In this document: one piece after another, positions 8,191-16,660 of the stretch
How the letters are laid out: the number at the start of each line of letters is the position of its first letter
Position numbering within the stretch: the stretch's first letter is position 1
Assembly (NCBI GenBank): GCA_025924435.1
Contig: JAICIL010000049.1
Coordinates: 1 to 18,828, forward strand
Source: Chloroflexia bacterium
Lineage (GTDB): Bacteria > Chloroflexota > Chloroflexia > Thermomicrobiales > JALYUS01
Length of the DNA: 18,828 bases
Direction: 5' to 3'
The notes under the pieces: model-generated
Databases searched by the model: none
What the model was told of the DNA's origin: nothing
Seen by the model: only the letters and a program-made list of their open reading frames with translations
Program-made: the position numbers and the translations under genes

Positions 8191-11100
8191 TCAGTGCGCG
8201 GTCGGGTCCGTCCGTTGCCCCGCCATGGCGAGCCAGGCGGCGGCGCGGGCGGGGAGATCCACGGAACGGCCTTTCTCCACCGTGCAGCCGGGGAGGGAAT
8301 TGAGGAAGGTCCGACCGTACCGCTTGGTGAGGACGCGCGAATCGAGGACGGCGCAGACCCCCCGGTCGGTGCTCGAACGGATCAGCCGCCCGAAGCCCTG
8401 CCGGAACTGCAGGACCGCCTGCGGCACGGCGAACTCCGCGAACGGCTCCGCGAACCCCTCGGAGCGCGCCTGGAAGACGGGGTCGCTCGGCACTTTGAAG
8501 GGCAATTTCGTGATGACGAGCACCGAGAGCGCGTCGCCGACGACATCCACGCCCTCCCAGAACGACGACGTGCCGAACAGGACCATCTCCTGATGCTGCT
8601 TGAACCGCTCGATCAACTGGCGCGGCCCGCCGTCCAGACGCTGGCCGAGGACGACGATCCCCGCCGCTTCGAGCACCGGCTTGACGGCGCGATAGGTCGC
8701 CTGGAGCGCGCTGTACGAGGTGAAGAGGACGAGCGCGCGCCCGCGCGTCGCCTCGCACAGGCCGATGATCGCGTCCTGCAATCCCTTCTGGTAGCCGGGG
8801 CGGTTCGGCTCCGGCATGTCCTCGACGGTGTAGAGGAGGGCGGAGCGGCGATAATCGAAGGGCGAGTCCACCGCTACTTCGGTCGCCGCGTCGCGCTCGA
8901 TGCCGAGGCGGGAGCCGAGGTAGTCGAATTTCCCCTCCGTCGTCATCGTCGCGCTCGTCATGACGACCGTGCGGCGCGGCCCGAAAAGGTCCGCCTGCAA
9001 TGTCGCGCCGACGTGGAGCGGCGCTGCCTTGACGCTAACCGCGCGGGAGGCGTCCGCCGCCGGTATCCCCGGCATCAGGGCGGGCGCGCCGTCCGCCGGC
9101 ATTTGCTGCCCGCCGCGCGGGGAGTCAATCTCGGTCCAGTAGACCATCTCCGGGTCCGGCTCCGCGAGGGCCGCCGCCGCGCCGACGCGGAGATCGGTGC
9201 AGATGCGCAGGGCGCGGGTGAGCAGCAGCAGCGTGTCGTCCTGCTCCTGCATCGTCTCGTCGGGCAGGCGGTAGACCTGCTCGAAAATCGCCATCAGCGT
9301 CTGCTGGATCGTGCCGAGCGGGAAGGAGAGGTTGTCCCAGGCGATCTCCACCTCCGTCCAGCCGGTGTCGTTGCGAACGTTCTGCGTGATGCGCAGGCGG
9401 GTGTCCGTCTCGTTCTGCGGGCGGCGGGCGAGGAAGGCGGCGAGGCGGTCGAAGAGCGCGAGCGTCAAGGCTCGCGTCTCGTCAATGCGCGGCAGCAGTT
9501 CGCCGCAGAGGCGCGCGACATCCTCCTGCACATCTTTCGGCGTCTTGCCGGTGCGGACGCGGATCGGCAGGTCGGCGAGCAGGCCGCGCGGCCCCTCGGC
9601 GTGCGGCTCCGCGAGCAGGTTGAGGAAGTTGAGCACCGTCGCGCGCTCGAAGGCGTAGCCGAGTTGGTTCGTCGCCTCGTCTTCGAGGTGGTGCGCCTCG
9701 TCCACGATCAAATGCTCGTAGGGCGGCAGGACGCCGCTGTTCGTCGTCATGTCGGAGAGCAGCAACGCGTGGTTGACGATCACGACGTGCGCGTTCTCCG
9801 CCGCGCGCCGCGCCCGCTGGACGAAGCACTGCCCCCGCTTCTGGAAGACGCACGACGAGGGGCAACTGTCCGGCCCGGCGTTGACGCGGTTCCACGCCTG
9901 GATGATGCCGAGCCGTCGCTCGTCGTCCGTGAAGCGGATCTCGCCCACATCGCCTGAGTCCGTCGTCTGGAGCCAGAGCAGCAATCGGAGCATCAGCCGC
10001 GCCTCGGCGGGCGAGAGGGCGGGATTGCCGCGCAATTTGAACCAGCGGTAGAGGCAGAGGTAGTTCGCGCGCCCCTTGACGACCGTGGCGCGGAAGTCGG
10101 CGGGCAGCCCCGCGCCGTTCGCGGCGGGCGCGCCGCCGATCGCCGCCAGCACGTCCTGCAAATCGGGGATGTCCTTCTTCGCCAGTTGATCCTGCAAGGC
10201 AATCGTCGCGGTGCTGACGACGACGGTTTCGCCGTGCTCGACCGCGTGCGCGACCGCCGGGACGAGATAGGCGACCGACTTTCCGGTGCCCGTGCCCGCC
10301 TCGACGAGCAATGTCTCATCCTTGTTGAAGGCGTCCGCGACGGCGTCGAGCATCTCCATCTGCTGCGGGCGGTGCTCGTAGTGCGGGAAGGCCTCGGCGA
10401 AGGGGCCGTCGGGCCGGAAGGTGTCGAGGATGGCGGCGGTGTCGAGCGGTCGCTGGCTGCCGGTGCTGCGGAGCGGTTCGGGACGCGGGCGGGGCATCAG
10501 GTACATGAGGTCCACGCCGCCCTCTTTTTCCGCCTGCCCGCCGCCCGCCTGGGCGCGCAATTGCTGGAGGATGCTCGCCCCCGCGCCCGCTCCGAACGTC
10601 CCCTGCTGCTTCTCCCGCTGCGCCTGCCGGAAAAGGCGCGCGAAGGGCGACTGCCCGATGTCCGCGAGGCGCGCCAGTTCACCCAACATCTCCATGTCGC
10701 ACTCCGCGATGCGATCCAGCAGGGCGCGGAAGACGGCGGCGGTCAGCTCGCAGTCGCCGAGGGCGCGGTGCTCCTGCGGCGTGCCGACCTGCAGCCGCTC
10801 CGCGATGCGCGTCAGGCTGTAGACCGGCAGATCGGGCAGGAGCAATGTCGCCAGTTCGTAGGTGTCGTACGTCGGGTTGTCGAGCATCAGCCCCTGCGCG
10901 GCGAGCAGTTTCAGGTCAATCTCGACCGACTGCCCGACAATCGGATAGCGCTGGACGAAACGGCGCAATTGCGGCGCGGCACTCGCGAAGGGGGGCGCGG
11001 CCTGGAGCATCGCGTTCGTGATGCCCGTCAGTTGCGCGGTGCCGAGCGGCACAGGCCGGACGGGCCGGACGAACGACGACCACCGCTCGATAATTCGCTC

Positions 11101-11268
11101 GCCCGTGAAGGTGACCGCCGCGACCTCGATGATCTCGTTGTTGCGCTCGTTCGCCGTCGCCTCGACATCCACGGCGACGTAGATCGGCGTGCTGGGCGCG
11201 GCGGGAGTGGCGGGGCGGTTCGGGACAGTGCCGGGGCGCGGCCGGCTCGGTGGCGGTAGGGGTGACAC
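8191..11268 (-). CDS. dinG: DinG-type ATP-dependent DNA helicase with N-terminal DEDD exonuclease domain
   Basis: About 1025 residues from GTG 11268. A DnaQ-like 3'-5' exonuclease domain covers about residues 27-190. Its ExoI is VDVEAT (Asp34, Glu36), ExoII EIDLKLL (Asp117) and ExoIII HRALGD (His166, Asp171), so it should be active. After a Gln/Gly-rich linker comes an XPD/DinG superfamily 2 helicase. Walker A is AGTGTGKS (323-330) and the DEAH box is 522-525. Four cysteines (404, 468, 472, 480) are placed as in the 4Fe-4S cluster of XPD-like helicases. The late motifs are GTSSFWEGVDV (899-909) and QFRQGFGRLIR (954-964). This domain order is the Bacillus/Chloroflexota-type DinG. Its likely role is unwinding or trimming DNA during repair. 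The frame is open to 11496, but composition there looks non-coding. TTG 11361 is the main alternative start. Confidence 0.9.
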   Translation of the reverse strand: MSPLPPPSRPRPGTVPNRPATPAAPSTPIYVAVDVEATANERNNEIIEVAAVTFTGERIIERWSSFVRPVRPVPLGTAQLTGITNAMLQAAPPFASAAPQLRRFVQRYPIVGQSVEIDLKLLAAQGLMLDNPTYDTYELATLLLPDLPVYSLTRIAERLQVGTPQEHRALGDCELTAAVFRALLDRIAECDMEMLGELARLADIGQSPFARLFRQAQREKQQGTFGAGAGASILQQLRAQAGGGQAEKEGGVDLMYLMPRPRPEPLRSTGSQRPLDTAAILDTFRPDGPFAEAFPHYEHRPQQMEMLDAVADAFNKDETLLVEAGTGTGKSVAYLVPAVAHAVEHGETVVVSTATIALQDQLAKKDIPDLQDVLAAIGGAPAANGAGLPADFRATVVKGRANYLCLYRWFKLRGNPALSPAEARLMLRLLLWLQTTDSGDVGEIRFTDDERRLGIIQAWNRVNAGPDSCPSSCVFQKRGQCFVQRARRAAENAHVVIVNHALLLSDMTTNSGVLPPYEHLIVDEAHHLEDEATNQLGYAFERATVLNFLNLLAEPHAEGPRGLLADLPIRVRTGKTPKDVQEDVARLCGELLPRIDETRALTLALFDRLAAFLARRPQNETDTRLRITQNVRNDTGWTEVEIAWDNLSFPLGTIQQTLMAIFEQVYRLPDETMQEQDDTLLLLTRALRICTDLRVGAAAALAEPDPEMVYWTEIDSPRGGQQMPADGAPALMPGIPAADASRAVSVKAAPLHVGATLQADLFGPRRTVVMTSATMTTEGKFDYLGSRLGIERDAATEVAVDSPFDYRRSALLYTVEDMPEPNRPGYQKGLQDAIIGLCEATRGRALVLFTSYSALQATYRAVKPVLEAAGIVVLGQRLDGGPRQLIERFKQHQEMVLFGTSSFWEGVDVVGDALSVLVITKLPFKVPSDPVFQARSEGFAEPFAEFAVPQAVLQFRQGFGRLIRSSTDRGVCAVLDSRVLTKRYGRTFLNSLPGCTVEKGRSVDLPARAAAWLAMAGQRTDPTAH

Positions 11269-11274
11269 AGGCGG

Positions 11275-11281
11275 TTCTCCC
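11275..11281 (-). promoter_or_regulatory. Ribosome binding site favouring GTG 11268 for dinG
   Basis: GGGAGAA on the minus strand is followed by 6 nt and GTG. This is the only good site ahead of the exonuclease domain, although TTG 11361 remains possible as a leaderless start. Confidence 0.45.
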
Positions 11282-11368
11282 GACGGTCTCCGCGACGGGC
11301 GCGGCGGTGGTTTCTCAGGGTTGTCCGGCAGAACCGCGTCCCATTGCGGCAGACCGAACAAGACGATG

Positions 11369-11377
11369 ATTGTATCA
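11369..11377 (-). promoter_or_regulatory. Extended -10 promoter of dinG
   Basis: On the minus strand TGATACAAT matches TGn followed by the -10 hexamer TACAAT, with a predicted start near 11362. The -35 region is poor. The AT-rich composition of 11370-11578 compared with its neighbours agrees with a regulatory rather than coding role. Confidence 0.45.
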
Positions 11378-11489
11378 GAATCTGCCCGCCCCAACCGCTT
11401 CCGCGCCAACGCTGCCGCAAACTCAGTAATGGTACGCAAGCAACAAGAGATAACCGGCCAGGTGCGTGGGCTGAGAGACAATGCACGGC

Positions 11490-11518
11490 TTGACATCCAT
11501 TCGTTGTGACGTTACATT
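11490..11518 (+). promoter_or_regulatory. Promoter of the RHH-like gene, TTGACA-17-TACATT
   Basis: A consensus -35 TTGACA at 11490-11495 is followed after 17 nt by TACATT at 11513-11518. The predicted start near 11525 leaves a leader of about 54 nt. A large dyad overlaps the spacer and the -10. Confidence 0.65.
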
Positions 11519-12975: not shown

Positions 12976-13659
12976 TCATCGCGAAGCGGTGAACCGGGCG
13001 TGCGCGGTGCGGAATCCGGCCTGCCAGTCAATGCATGGCGCGAATGCCTCATCGGGATGCGCGAGATCTACGTGCGTTACGAACGGCGCGCCGTCGTCGC
13101 GGATAGAGAGGATTGCGACACTCTGCATGCGCTGCCGCAATGCCGGGTTCGGGGCGGCAAGTGCGCCGGGATTGACGAGCAATACATCGTCGTACTCGAC
13201 GGCCATCGGAACGTGCGTATGCCCGAAGACGACAACCCGCGCACCCGCCCTGCGGCCCATCGCCGCCCGCCGCGCCAATTTCGGCTCCCATGCGTCGTCC
13301 TCGCGGGATGCCATCTCCGCCGCGCGGTCGGGATAATGCCCGTGCGTGAGGAGCATTCGCGCGCCGCCCGCGACGACGAGCTGCTGGTACGGCAACTCCC
13401 GCTGCGCCTCCGCCGTCTCGTCATTGCCGTGCACCGCGATCACCGGCGCAATCGCGCTCAACCGATCCAGCACCCACAACTCCCCGACATCGCCCGCGTG
13501 CAGCAGCAGATCCACGCCCTGCAATGCATCGAAGACCGCCGCCGGCAACTTCGCGCACCGCTGCGGCATGTGCGTATCCGAAATCAGCGCAATCCGCGCC
13601 GCAACACGCGCGGCGGGCAGTTCGGGCGGCAAAAACCGATCAAGCATGGTGGGCGTCAT
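12976..13659 (-). CDS. YfcE/MJ0936-type metallophosphoesterase
   Basis: This 227-residue calcineurin-like phosphoesterase has all five metal-binding motifs. They are SDTHMP (Asp28, His30), HAGDVG (Asp57), HGNDE (Asn79), LTHGHYP (His106, His108) and VFGHTHVP (His147, His149). LLVNPGA (160-166) is the usual YfcE end motif. It should be a soluble Mn- or Ni-dependent phosphodiesterase; the physiological substrate is unknown. The start ATG overlaps the stop of the upstream RusA-like gene in the sequence ATGA (13656-13659), which implies coupled translation as the last gene of the operon. ATG at codon 5 is a possible alternative start. Confidence 0.9.
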   Translation of the reverse strand: MTPTMLDRFLPPELPAARVAARIALISDTHMPQRCAKLPAAVFDALQGVDLLLHAGDVGELWVLDRLSAIAPVIAVHGNDETAEAQRELPYQQLVVAGGARMLLTHGHYPDRAAEMASREDDAWEPKLARRAAMGRRAGARVVVFGHTHVPMAVEYDDVLLVNPGALAAPNPALRQRMQSVAILSIRDDGAPFVTHVDLAHPDEAFAPCIDWQAGFRTAHARFTASR

Positions 13660-14675
13660 AGCTTGTCATCGCTATTCTCCCCTTCCGGCAAAAATCGTCC
13701 CCGGAAACGTGCCTTCTTGGTCTCAATGTCAATGTGGATCTTGAACAGTCTCGCTTCTCTATCGCTGTTCACGAGGCGCAACCCTAATCGCTTAATCTGA
13801 TCCAGGGAAGGGCTGGAAGCAGTAAAGAGCGGCTCGTATTGTGCGAATGTGGGCGTCGGCTCGAAATCGCAATAGAGCCATGGAAAGTCGCTGTCGTAAG
13901 ACTCCAAGACTCCCAACAGTTCATCGCCCTTGCGCAGTTCAAATCTGGGTTCCGGCCCGTGATCGATGGTAACGCTAACCGCGCCGTCAGGGACATTTGC
14001 GCTCTTCTTCTCCACGTAGAGCGACGTGATTCGCCAATCTTCCGGCGCACCGACAACCCCACCGAGAATTGGATAGAGACAATCAATCACTGATTTGACG
14101 CGCCCGGTCGCAATATCCCCGATGTTGACGGCCGAACCGCCGAATCGCAATCCCACCGCATAGCGGGATGCTTGTGTACGTGCCACCGCATGTTGCCTCA
14201 CCCAATCCGCGAATGGTTTATCCCTCGCGCTTCGAGGTAATACGCCCTCGTATGTGGCGGAGAATATTGTGCCGATTTTGGGCACCGCTGCTATCGTCGG
14301 TGGTGACGAATATACGACTACCCGACACCCCTGGATTGCGGCAGTAGAAGTGACGTACGTTTTCGAGACACTGTACCACTGAATATTTGGTCGTCGTCCT
14401 GAGAACCATCTCTGTCGTCCAACGAGTACAGCGAAGACGGGTTCACACAAGTTGTCGATGTCTACTTTCCGTTCTTCTCCCGCTTCTCCGGCGAGTTGGA
14501 ACGAGAGCGTTATTCCCTGCGCGTGTGCGACAGGCGGCGGTGGGATAGCATTCGCCAAAGTTTCCTTCCAAGGTTTCTCCCGACGTGTGGCAAATGTAGC
14601 CGGCATGCCGGGAATCCATTTCCACAGAGGAATGTCGCTCAGTGGAATGGAGGATGGATACTGTTCTATCTCCAC
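13656..14675 (-). CDS. Uncharacterised protein with two tandem RusA-like modules and a C-terminal domain
   Basis: This 339-residue protein has no family I can name as a whole. Residues 25-125 resemble the RusA Holliday-junction resolvase: ATRREKPWKETLANAI, then RKVDIDNLCEPVFAVL (Asp72, Asp74, Asn75), then IQWYSVSK. Residues 150-240 repeat the plan: VNIGDIATGRVKSVIDCLYP (Asp187, Lys194, Asp198), then PEDWRITSLYVEKK (Glu212, Asp213). The last 100 residues (DFPWLYCDFEPTPTFAQYEPLF, split at 263-284, ending FKIHIDIETKKARFR) resemble a small uncharacterised actinobacterial protein I remember with DFPW and HIDGD motifs. The first half keeps DxDN but lacks the Lys and late acidic pair; the second keeps Lys and ED but not the second Asp. 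GTG 14675 follows GGGAG by 7 nt. Composition is more AT-rich than its neighbours, suggesting transfer. Confidence 0.6.
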   Translation of the reverse strand: MEIEQYPSSIPLSDIPLWKWIPGMPATFATRREKPWKETLANAIPPPPVAHAQGITLSFQLAGEAGEERKVDIDNLCEPVFAVLVGRQRWFSGRRPNIQWYSVSKTYVTSTAAIQGCRVVVYSSPPTIAAVPKIGTIFSATYEGVLPRSARDKPFADWVRQHAVARTQASRYAVGLRFGGSAVNIGDIATGRVKSVIDCLYPILGGVVGAPEDWRITSLYVEKKSANVPDGAVSVTIDHGPEPRFELRKGDELLGVLESYDSDFPWLYCDFEPTPTFAQYEPLFTASSPSLDQIKRLGLRLVNSDREARLFKIHIDIETKKARFRGRFLPEGENSDDKL

Positions 14676-14696: not shown

Positions 14697-15407
14697 TCAC
14701 GTAAATCCCGCCACCACATCCGGCACCTCCGCCAGCGCCCGGATAACCGGATAATCCGCACGATGTTCGCTGCCCCGCCGGTCAATGAGCACCCCGTGCA
14801 TGCCGACCGCCCGCGCGCCGCCGACATCGGCGACGGCGTTGTCGCCGATCTGCACACACTCCTCCGGGCGCGCGCCGAACCAGCGGAGCGCGTAGTCGTA
14901 GATCGCGCGGTGCGGCTTCGATGCGCCGACGCGGGCGGAGGTGACGATGTGCTCGAAGTGCCCGGTGATGCCGAGGCCGTCGCAGAGATCGGGGAGGTTC
15001 CACGACCAGTTGGAGATGATGCCGAGCCGGTAACCCGCGCCGCGCAGCGCCTCGAGCGTCGGGATGGCGTCGGGGAAGAGATGGAAATGCGCGGGCGTCT
15101 CGAACTCGCGTTGCAGGTGGGCGAGGATCGCCCGCATCTTCTCGTCCATCGGCGCACCGGCGCGGCGGAGGATTGCGCCGTTGATCTCCTCGTAGTATCG
15201 CTGGTCCGCCTCCTCGGTCGCCTCGTAGGTCATGCGCGACTCGTCCGCATCCAGCGCGCCGAAGACTTCGCGCGTCGCCCGCACGAGCGCGTCGTGCTCG
15301 ACGTGGATGCCGTGCCGCGCGCAGGCATTGACGTAGAGCGTCTCCCACGAGGGGAGGATCGTCGTCAGCGTGTCGCCCATGTCGAAGAAGACGACGCGAA
15401 TGCTCAT
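14697..15407 (-). CDS. HAD-superfamily hydrolase (subfamily IA)
   Basis: This 236-residue protein has the HAD fold with a helical cap between motifs I and II. Motif I is VFFDMGDTL with nucleophile Asp9. The position of the usual second Asp (DxD) is Gly11, a variant I know from other HAD-IA proteins of the FDxGxTL type, which may alter the acid-base step. Motif II is GIISNW (Ser132), motif III SKP (Lys164) and motif IV VQIGDNAVADVGGA (Asp189, Asp194). It is most likely a phosphatase or dehalogenase-like enzyme for a small metabolite. The ATG overlaps the M20 peptidase stop as ATGA (15404-15407), so the two are co-translated. The start is fixed by motif I lying at residue 9. Confidence 0.88.
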   Translation of the reverse strand: MSIRVVFFDMGDTLTTILPSWETLYVNACARHGIHVEHDALVRATREVFGALDADESRMTYEATEEADQRYYEEINGAILRRAGAPMDEKMRAILAHLQREFETPAHFHLFPDAIPTLEALRGAGYRLGIISNWSWNLPDLCDGLGITGHFEHIVTSARVGASKPHRAIYDYALRWFGARPEECVQIGDNAVADVGGARAVGMHGVLIDRRGSEHRADYPVIRALAEVPDVVAGFT

Positions 15408-16660
15408 CCCGCGTCGTATCCCCCGAGGGCGAGGATGAGCAGGAGCAATTGCTGGAGGCCGGTGGGGATCGTCGAGATGCGGATGAACTCCTCCAGGCGG
15501 TGCGCGTTGCCGCCCTCCGCGATGCCGATGCAGACGGCGGGGATGCCGAGGCCAATCGGCACATTGGCGTCCGTGCTGCTCGCGTCGAGCGTCGGCGCGA
15601 TGCCGAGGGCCCGCAGCGTCTCCATGCACGCCCGCACGATCGGCGCGTCGGCGGGGAGGTCGCCCGCCGGCCGGTCGCCGAGGATCTCCGCCGTCACCTG
15701 CACGTCCGCGATGTGGACCGCGCGGACGGCGCGCTCGACGTGCGCGGCGAGCCGTTCGAGATTCGCCTGCGAGATCGAGCGCAAGTCCACGAGCGCGGAC
15801 GCGGCGGGCGCGATGGTGTTGACCGAGACGCCGCCCTCGATCGTGCCGACGGAAAGCGACGTTTTCGGCGTCGAGGGGATCGGCAGCGCGACGAGATCCG
15901 TGATCAGTTTGGCGAGGATGTGGATAGCGTTCGGGCGGCCGTAATTGCCCCATGAATGGCCGCCCGGCCCCTGCACGGTGAGCCGGTAGCGGCGGCTGCC
16001 GACGGCGCGATGCGTCACGCGGCCCAGGTTATGCCCCTCGACCGCGACGACCGCGCCGAGACGATCCCGATACGTGCTGACCGCCGCGCGCATGCCGCGC
16101 AGGTCGCCCAGCCCCTCCTCGCCGACATCCGCGACGAAGAGGATGTCGCCCGCCGTCGTCAGATCGAGCGTCGTGAGCAGCCGGGCGGCGGTGAGCATCG
16201 CCGCGACGCCGAGGCTGTTGTCGCCGACGCCCGGCCCCGCGATGCGCTCCGGCGTGCGGCGCACGGTGAGGTCCGTTTCGGCGGGGAAGACGGTGTCGGT
16301 GTGCGCGGCGATCATCACCGCCGGGCCGTCGCCGCTGCCCGGTCGCCGCCCGATGGCGTTGCCGACGCTGTCCGTTTGCACGTCCGCGAGGCCGATGGCG
16401 CGCATCTCCCGCGCGACGAACGCGGCGCGCTCCGCCTCCGCGCCCGTCGGAGCGGGAATCTGGGCGATGCTCGCGGTCAGGGCGATGGTGTCGGCCAGCG
16501 AAACTTTCGCCCGGCCCAGGAGCCGCTCGATGTCCGGCCGGGTGAGGAGATGATCTATCGTTGGTGTGATGGCGCTGATGGCTGGTGCCTCTTTCTTCGT
16601 CGAATTGGCCCCGAAATGACGGGCGCTCCGCCGCACCCCGCACGCAGTATAGCGCACCAT
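15404..16660 (-). CDS. M20-family metallopeptidase
   Basis: A protein of up to 418 residues. It has the di-zinc M20 pattern: MIAAHTDTVFP (His120, Asp122), GVGDNSLG (Asp147, bridging ligand), VADVGEEGLG (Glu181 general base, Glu182), VAVEGH (Glu208) and EGGNAHRLEE (His387). The dimerisation domain between about 215 and 330 includes GPGGHSWGNYGRPNA. This matches PepT-like peptidases and related amidohydrolases that cleave small peptides or N-acylated amino acids in the cytoplasm. The start is uncertain: ATG 16660 has no ribosome binding site, and a TATACT -10 lies inside its first codons. The conserved protein seems to begin near residue 28-31. It is the first gene of a four-gene operon. Confidence 0.87.
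   Translation of the reverse strand: MVRYTACGVRRSARHFGANSTKKEAPAISAITPTIDHLLTRPDIERLLGRAKVSLADTIALTASIAQIPAPTGAEAERAAFVAREMRAIGLADVQTDSVGNAIGRRPGSGDGPAVMIAAHTDTVFPAETDLTVRRTPERIAGPGVGDNSLGVAAMLTAARLLTTLDLTTAGDILFVADVGEEGLGDLRGMRAAVSTYRDRLGAVVAVEGHNLGRVTHRAVGSRRYRLTVQGPGGHSWGNYGRPNAIHILAKLITDLVALPIPSTPKTSLSVGTIEGGVSVNTIAPAASALVDLRSISQANLERLAAHVERAVRAVHIADVQVTAEILGDRPAGDLPADAPIVRACMETLRALGIAPTLDASSTDANVPIGLGIPAVCIGIAEGGNAHRLEEFIRISTIPTGLQQLLLLILALGGYDAG
16646..16651 (-). promoter_or_regulatory. Possible -10 hexamer (TATACT) of the M20-HAD-RusA-like-YfcE operon
   Basis: TATACT occurs on the minus strand just ahead of the operon. The best -35-like TTGGCA is 20 nt upstream, longer than usual. If used, transcription would begin near 16639, downstream of ATG 16660. 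Confidence 0.35.

Follow-up and report, generated by a model that had tools for sequence, protein, structure and literature searches.

The gene at positions 13656..14675 of the window (the whole stretch of 18,828 nucleotides that was analysed, from a Chloroflexia bacterium) encodes a protein which an earlier note, made from the sequence alone, had described as two RusA-like halves in one chain with complementary losses of catalytic residues. The question raised by this locus is whether such a chain still holds an active site and what it may do with it. Two options had been left by the note, a fused asymmetric pseudo-dimer with divided active-site roles and a structure-specific DNA-binding protein without cleavage. 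The features are listed below; E. coli RusA residue numbering was fixed via the D70N chain, and conservation is given over an alignment of 161 proteins.

13656..14675, minus strand: whole gene, 339 aa (339 codons), GTG start, the true start being uncertain
14295..14633, minus strand: half 1, residues 15–127, predicted RusA-like fold with the DxDN motif
13941..14294, minus strand: half 2, residues 128–245, predicted RusA-like fold with K194, D198 and E212-D213
14451..14462, minus strand: D72-I-D74-N75, corresponding to RusA D70/D72/N73, part of the proposed composite site; kept in 160, 159 and 160 of 161
14082..14096, minus strand: K194...D198, corresponding to RusA K76 and D80; each kept in 161/161
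14037..14042, minus strand: E212-D213, corresponding to RusA D90-D91, the conserved one being D213 (160/161; E212 in 100/161)
14109..14117, minus strand: D187-I-A189, degenerate DxD of half 2, part of the putative lost second site; position 187 is D or E in 131/161
14391..14444, minus strand: E78 (in place of RusA K76) to R95, half-1 side of the putative lost second site
13659..13955, minus strand: C-terminal DFPW domain, residues 241–339
12976..13659, minus strand: metallophosphoesterase, downstream; its ATG overlaps the stop of the RusA-like gene (ATGA)
14697..15422, minus strand: HAD-family hydrolase, upstream, on the same strand as the RusA-like gene

The predicted fold of each half matches RusA on structure comparison, and the model almost certainly contains two RusA-like folds in one chain. 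In a profile-profile alignment against 16 RusA sequences half 1 and half 2 were matched with probabilities of 92 and 73.5, an agreement which is inflated, since the RusA ORFs were chosen partly by the DxDN...DD pattern and the profile is therefore motif-rich. Each of the two scores was reached by 0 of 60 column shuffles; a run with another option gave probabilities of 87.7 and 25.9 for the same halves. The RusA profile was derived from 27 loci (L020–L046), from which 20 ORFs passed the pattern and 16 sequences were left after L032, L033, L037 and L040 had been dropped. The earlier note had named a profile search of each half as a check on its claim and halves unrelated to RusA in fold as its refutation; the claim of two RusA-like halves stands on both counts. 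The halves do not detect each other by profile (probability 0.08), so the case for a duplication is drawn from fold and motif order.

Toblerone-fold cyclic amide hydrolases were at the top of the Foldseek search by E-value with the whole model, where RusA had rank 50; they were set aside because of poor superposition (TM ~0.2, rmsd ~12–14 Å). Rows of FtsZ, TubZ, OmpA-like and DhaK proteins in VIA-align score below RusA and were taken as a shared arrangement only. TMq never exceeded 0.28 among the 50 viral structure matches listed, so none of them covers both halves.

The protein search matched 187 relatives of the query, 120 of which were listed; one relative, P0002, shows 74% identity over 96%. 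Most matches among the 120 listed are ~210–260 aa long and cover 58–70% of the query, and hence the two-half core is the unit of the family. A later profile search (93 matches), in which scoring was confined to the 7997 candidates with the most words in common, added a far subfamily of 12 proteins, 21–29% identical to P0075 (231 aa, from Desulfosporosinus); the subfamily includes P0155 from Ktedonobacter robiniae, the same protein as the ORF of genome G362 already inside family profile A3. The alignment of 161 proteins is made up of 149 near (query included) and 12 far ones, with the fragments P0130, P0138, P0146, P0151 and P0154 left out of the counts; alignments A1 and A2 contain 88 rows from 121 proteins. 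The query has no match in Pfam, NCBIfam, PADLOC or PHROGs at E up to 10, the curated RusA model PF05866 included, and P0075 and P0156 have none in Pfam or NCBIfam. A sequence search of the PDB gave nothing for the query, and profile A3 gave two matches there at chance level only (E 1.3 and 1.6). The query belongs to an unnamed cross-domain family of bacteria and archaea.

The profile alignment maps the residues of half 1 onto RusA as D72 = D70, D74 = D72, N75 = N73 and E78 = K76, and those of half 2 as D187 = D70, A189 = D72, K194 = K76, D198 = D80 and E212-D213 = D90-D91 (RusA numbers second). R95 of half 1, paired by eye, falls at or near RusA D91, where the profile alignment has a small gap. 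Half 1 of the query lacks equivalents of K76 and D91 and half 2 lacks that of D72; the full RusA set (D70, D72, K76, D91) is therefore not found inside each protomer. It is found across both halves: D72, D74 and N75 of half 1 occur together with K194, D198 and D213 of half 2 in 157 of the 161 proteins (146/149 near, 11/12 far), a residue agreement that is inflated, as the relatives were collected partly by words from the catalytic motifs. The reciprocal set is complete in none of the 161 by a strict rule and in one by a loose rule, which asks for an acid at 187 and at 189 or 190, Lys at 78 and an acid at 94 or 95; P0156 alone satisfies it. Conservation of Asp72/Asp74 and Lys194/Asp213 among homologues, on which the earlier note had staked its claim, is borne out by the counts given in the list. 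The halves do keep complementary residues, as had been claimed; the loss is better described as that of one whole composite site than as that of parts of two.

The residues of the second site are kept far less well. No protein of the 161 has an acid at both 187 and 189, and an acid at 187 is combined with one at 189 or 190 in 5/161 (an acid at 190 occurs in 13/161). Position 187 is D or E in 129/149 near and 2/12 far proteins; the corresponding figures are 100/149 and 0/12 for E212, 141/149 and 0/12 for E78, and 144/149 and 6/12 for R95. The composite set persists in the far subfamily despite this divergence, so that what survives is DxDN from half 1 together with K, D and D from half 2. Half 1 of the far subfamily scores 34.6 against the RusA profile (reached by 0/60 shuffles), and the RusA profile does not pick up its half 2 (11.95, reached by 21/60). 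Lys78, Asp82 and Glu95 are retained in four far proteins (P0156, P0157, P0158 and P0161), and an acid occupies position 94 or 95 in 11 far proteins. Such residues give the impression either of ancestral remnants or of a second site that this branch has partly preserved, and they count against a clean loss of the second site.

It is fairly likely that D72/D74/N75 and K194/D198/D213 form one composite RusA active site. The two groups of residues would have to meet in space, which we infer from their joint conservation in sequence. According to the RusA structure paper Mg2+ binding reportedly needs dimer formation, which suggests that the RusA site is shared between subunits; if so, the observed pattern fits a fused dimer with one working site. 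The available parts of PMC3834835, PMC3864405, PMC7824862, PMC10684548 and PMC3485210 hold no description of how the site is shared. EcoRusA is a dimer, its subunits being identical and of 14 kDa, and it depends on Mg2+/Mn2+ (PMC3485210).

The family gene is rare and patchy, moves alone and has apparently been transferred between domains. Carriers amount to 2/400 genomes in the phylum of G009, 4/149 in the order of G004, 2/10 and 2/398 around G006 and, with the far profile, 1/47 in the class of G362; they were already known, except for G362, which was newly added by the scan of the G009 phylum. When the genome collection was scanned with a pattern, 63 stretches came out, and 16 of them are relatives, in archaea and several bacterial phyla. 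A Methanoperedens copy, that of L005, shares 65% identity with a Clostridiaceae copy, 61% with a BMS3Abin16 archaeal copy, and only 47% with another Methanoperedens copy. The GC content of the window gene is ~54% (core 55%, C-terminal part 52%) vs 67% for the window, nine other window genes that were measured being at 64–74%. An offset of at least 10 points was also found in L001, L003, L008 and L012; in L006, L007, L009, L010 and L011 it is negligible. Within the class of G006 an HD-domain gene and a 591-aa neighbour lie near each other in nine genomes out of ten; in the tenth, where 1.7 kb of contig remain, the 591-aa neighbour was not found. The gap between them (L006/L015, L074–L080) holds the RusA-like gene in two genomes (the L015 copy contains a run of N), 128–497 bp without it in five and other ORFs in two. 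The insertion sites of the family gene differ between genomes. Viral contigs, phages, plasmids and IMG/VR yielded no family member at the sensitivity used.

In the window the gene stands in a same-strand row of HAD hydrolase, RusA-like gene and metallophosphoesterase, and none of the ten neighbours tested is a defence family by Pfam names. A helicase with an N-terminal RNase T-type exonuclease domain, presumably DinG-like, is encoded at 8191–11496 on the minus strand. Over 17 loci (L001–L016, and L055 for G362) known or candidate defence genes lie within ~10 kb in 7, a raw count with neighbours tested selectively; 5/17 are left without the weaker links L013 (YhcG nuclease) and L016 (DUF2971/PDC-S31), the family gene of the latter being a fragment with 48/243 profile positions. 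L014/L056 have a type I restriction enzyme, SIR2, HerA and PDC-S15 as neighbours, L002 has KwaA/KwaB and an Mrr-type nuclease, and L004 a type III restriction enzyme and methylase. The neighbours in L055 are KwaA/KwaB, a type I enzyme and methylase and a PtuA-like ATPase. This Ktedonobacter island has Kiwa between type I restriction genes (L055:339-8306; the first methylase and specificity genes by eye), and at L055:10528-15743 the PtuA-like ATPase stands beside a PDC-M62B-type protein and a type I methylase. The order in L010 is AAA/EVE protein, McrC and, 22 bp after it on the same strand (if the start is as read), the family gene. In G002 (4.5 Mb) and G362 (10.7 Mb) a single KwaB was found, ~1 and ~5 kb from the family gene, and in G010 (2.6 Mb) a single McrC, which ends 22 bp upstream of it; KwaB and McrC were chosen for this search after they had been seen near the gene, and the assemblies are partly incomplete. 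G004 has an McrC elsewhere in its genome. No clear defence gene was seen in L001, L003, L005–L009, L011, L012 and L015, where the neighbours are mainly housekeeping genes by inspection, some of the proteins having been tested. A PIN-domain gene lies near the family member in L005. A divergent uracil-DNA glycosylase superfamily gene (L011:5480-6124) adjoins the one on a Bathyarchaeota contig, and in an archaeon (L008:5648-7846) the family gene stands between hypA and a gene resembling hypE by eye, in an apparent hydrogenase maturation cluster. From these gene neighbourhoods a defence role of the family is plausible, if slightly doubtful: it would be suggested by the loci near Kiwa, McrBC, type I/III restriction and SIR2-HerA, but not by the window.

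The following mechanism may be proposed. The DxDN acids would come from half 1, the Lys and the late Asp from half 2, and both contributions would build one composite RusA site at the interface between the halves, the symmetry-related second site having decayed. The RusA homodimer makes two opposed nicks and so resolves a junction; the fused enzyme would nick branched or distorted DNA once only and in a fixed orientation. The lone gene travels and sometimes joins defence loci, its product possibly serving as an accessory anti-virus nuclease. We infer cutting, nicking, substrate and purpose alike. Nuclease activity of the fused protein is likely, and for nicking on branched DNA the scales are level. 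The reading as a whole, namely a gene-fused RusA pseudo-dimer with one composite site and a single oriented nick, encoded by a lone mobile gene and maybe acting as an accessory anti-virus nuclease, is held with somewhat more confidence than doubt. Its more far-reaching form is tentative and rather doubtful: a cross-domain family of single-chain, single-site RusA-derived nickases which would act as accessory anti-virus effectors by cutting branched intermediates of phage replication or recombination in one defined strand.

The second option of the earlier note, a RusA-derived structure-specific DNA binder without cleavage, agrees with the fact that neither half has the complete RusA set by itself. 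It is nevertheless unlikely, as the six residues of the composite site are intact in 157/161 proteins of bacteria and archaea, and a pure binder has no obvious need for the invariant D213 and K194. The joint retention of these six residues favours the note's first option, the fused pseudo-dimer with divided active-site roles. The opposite possibility, that both sites work in a relaxed form and the protein is a symmetric Holliday-junction resolvase for ordinary recombination, would suit the RusA-like fold of both halves and the second-site traces in some far proteins. Against it stand the absence of any protein acidic at both 187 and 189, the Glu in place of Lys in 141/149 near proteins and the rarity of the gene (2/400, 4/149, 2/398 and 1/47 genomes), and we consider it very improbable.

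A different explanation is suggested by the mobility of the gene. Monomeric LAGLIDADG homing endonucleases are homodimeric nucleases made into one asymmetric chain by fusion and encoded by lone mobile genes; the present family resembles them in these respects and differs in its unrelated fold. It may accordingly be asked whether the protein is a selfish, free-standing endonuclease of the homing type, in which a pseudo-dimer formed by one chain cleaves target sites and thereby spreads by itself between genes. The presence or absence of a single gene at one site, the foreign GC content, the apparent cross-domain transfer and the single-chain asymmetry all speak for it; the position near defence genes in several loci, the fusion to several different extra domains and the lack of members in phage, plasmid and IMG/VR collections at the sensitivity used speak against it. 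This explanation seems quite unlikely to us, and the single-site pseudo-dimer remains preferred.

With the RusA resolvase (PF05866; PDB 1q8r, 2h8c, 2h8e) the protein shares the predicted fold of each half and the order of catalytic motifs, and the equivalents of D70, D72, K76, D80 and D91 are found between its two halves; it differs in having two copies per chain, with the residues split between them and the second site degenerate. Accessory genes of restriction and defence islands (Kiwa, McrBC, type I/III restriction) are likewise patchy, mobile and located in or near such loci in some genomes; in contrast to them, the query has no PADLOC match and 10/17 loci have no clear defence gene. The SPP1 phage resolvase G44P is a 236-aa protein, a dimer in solution, which cuts Holliday junctions and D-loops, and is likewise a double-length protein of the RusA group; in the part of that source available only its C-terminal half is described as RusA-like, a difference from the present protein that is taken from description (PMC3485210). 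A tandem or fused RusA was not found in titles or abstract starts among the matches listed in the literature search, and novelty of the fused pair is claimed within the literature and libraries searched. The family offers a natural test of RusA active-site sharing, since the two contributions are apparently placed on two halves and one complete set is kept. If the proposal is true, a junction resolvase that makes two nicks would here have become an asymmetric enzyme with one site, a rare case. An unannotated candidate nuclease of bacteria and archaea joins the genes found near restriction, Kiwa and McrBC systems.

The third, DFPW-containing domain that the earlier note had seen attached is indeed present in the query, where it is mostly below pLDDT 50, but it is no general part of the architecture: 2/161 members have it (query and P0002), and it is incidental to the family. 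It matches a stand-alone 101-aa ORF (L058:1486-1791) with 43% identity over 42 residues (E 2.5e-6), and a match occurs in 2/158 genomes in the class of G016. Among the 161 proteins 125 consist of the core only, 25 have N-terminal extensions (at least 60 residues) and 11 C-terminal ones (at least 50); by BLAST these extensions form seven groups of two or more and five singletons. A DUF7669-type domain group has 11 members, 10 N-terminal and one C-terminal, with DUF7669 above its cut-off in P0007. A small, unnamed FNDFSG-type domain, with an FNDFSGxGxSG-like motif and a conserved Cys, is fused at either end of the core in five members (P0019, P0038, P0047, P0063 and P0072) and was recognized by eye at L001:9707-10000; its PDB match is a weak one only, to A118 integrase (E 0.015). 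Two of the extra domain types and the DFPW domain gave no match in plasmids. The N-terminal extension of P0137 (residues 1–130), with no Pfam match, resembles by eye a PD-(D/E)xK restriction-type domain.
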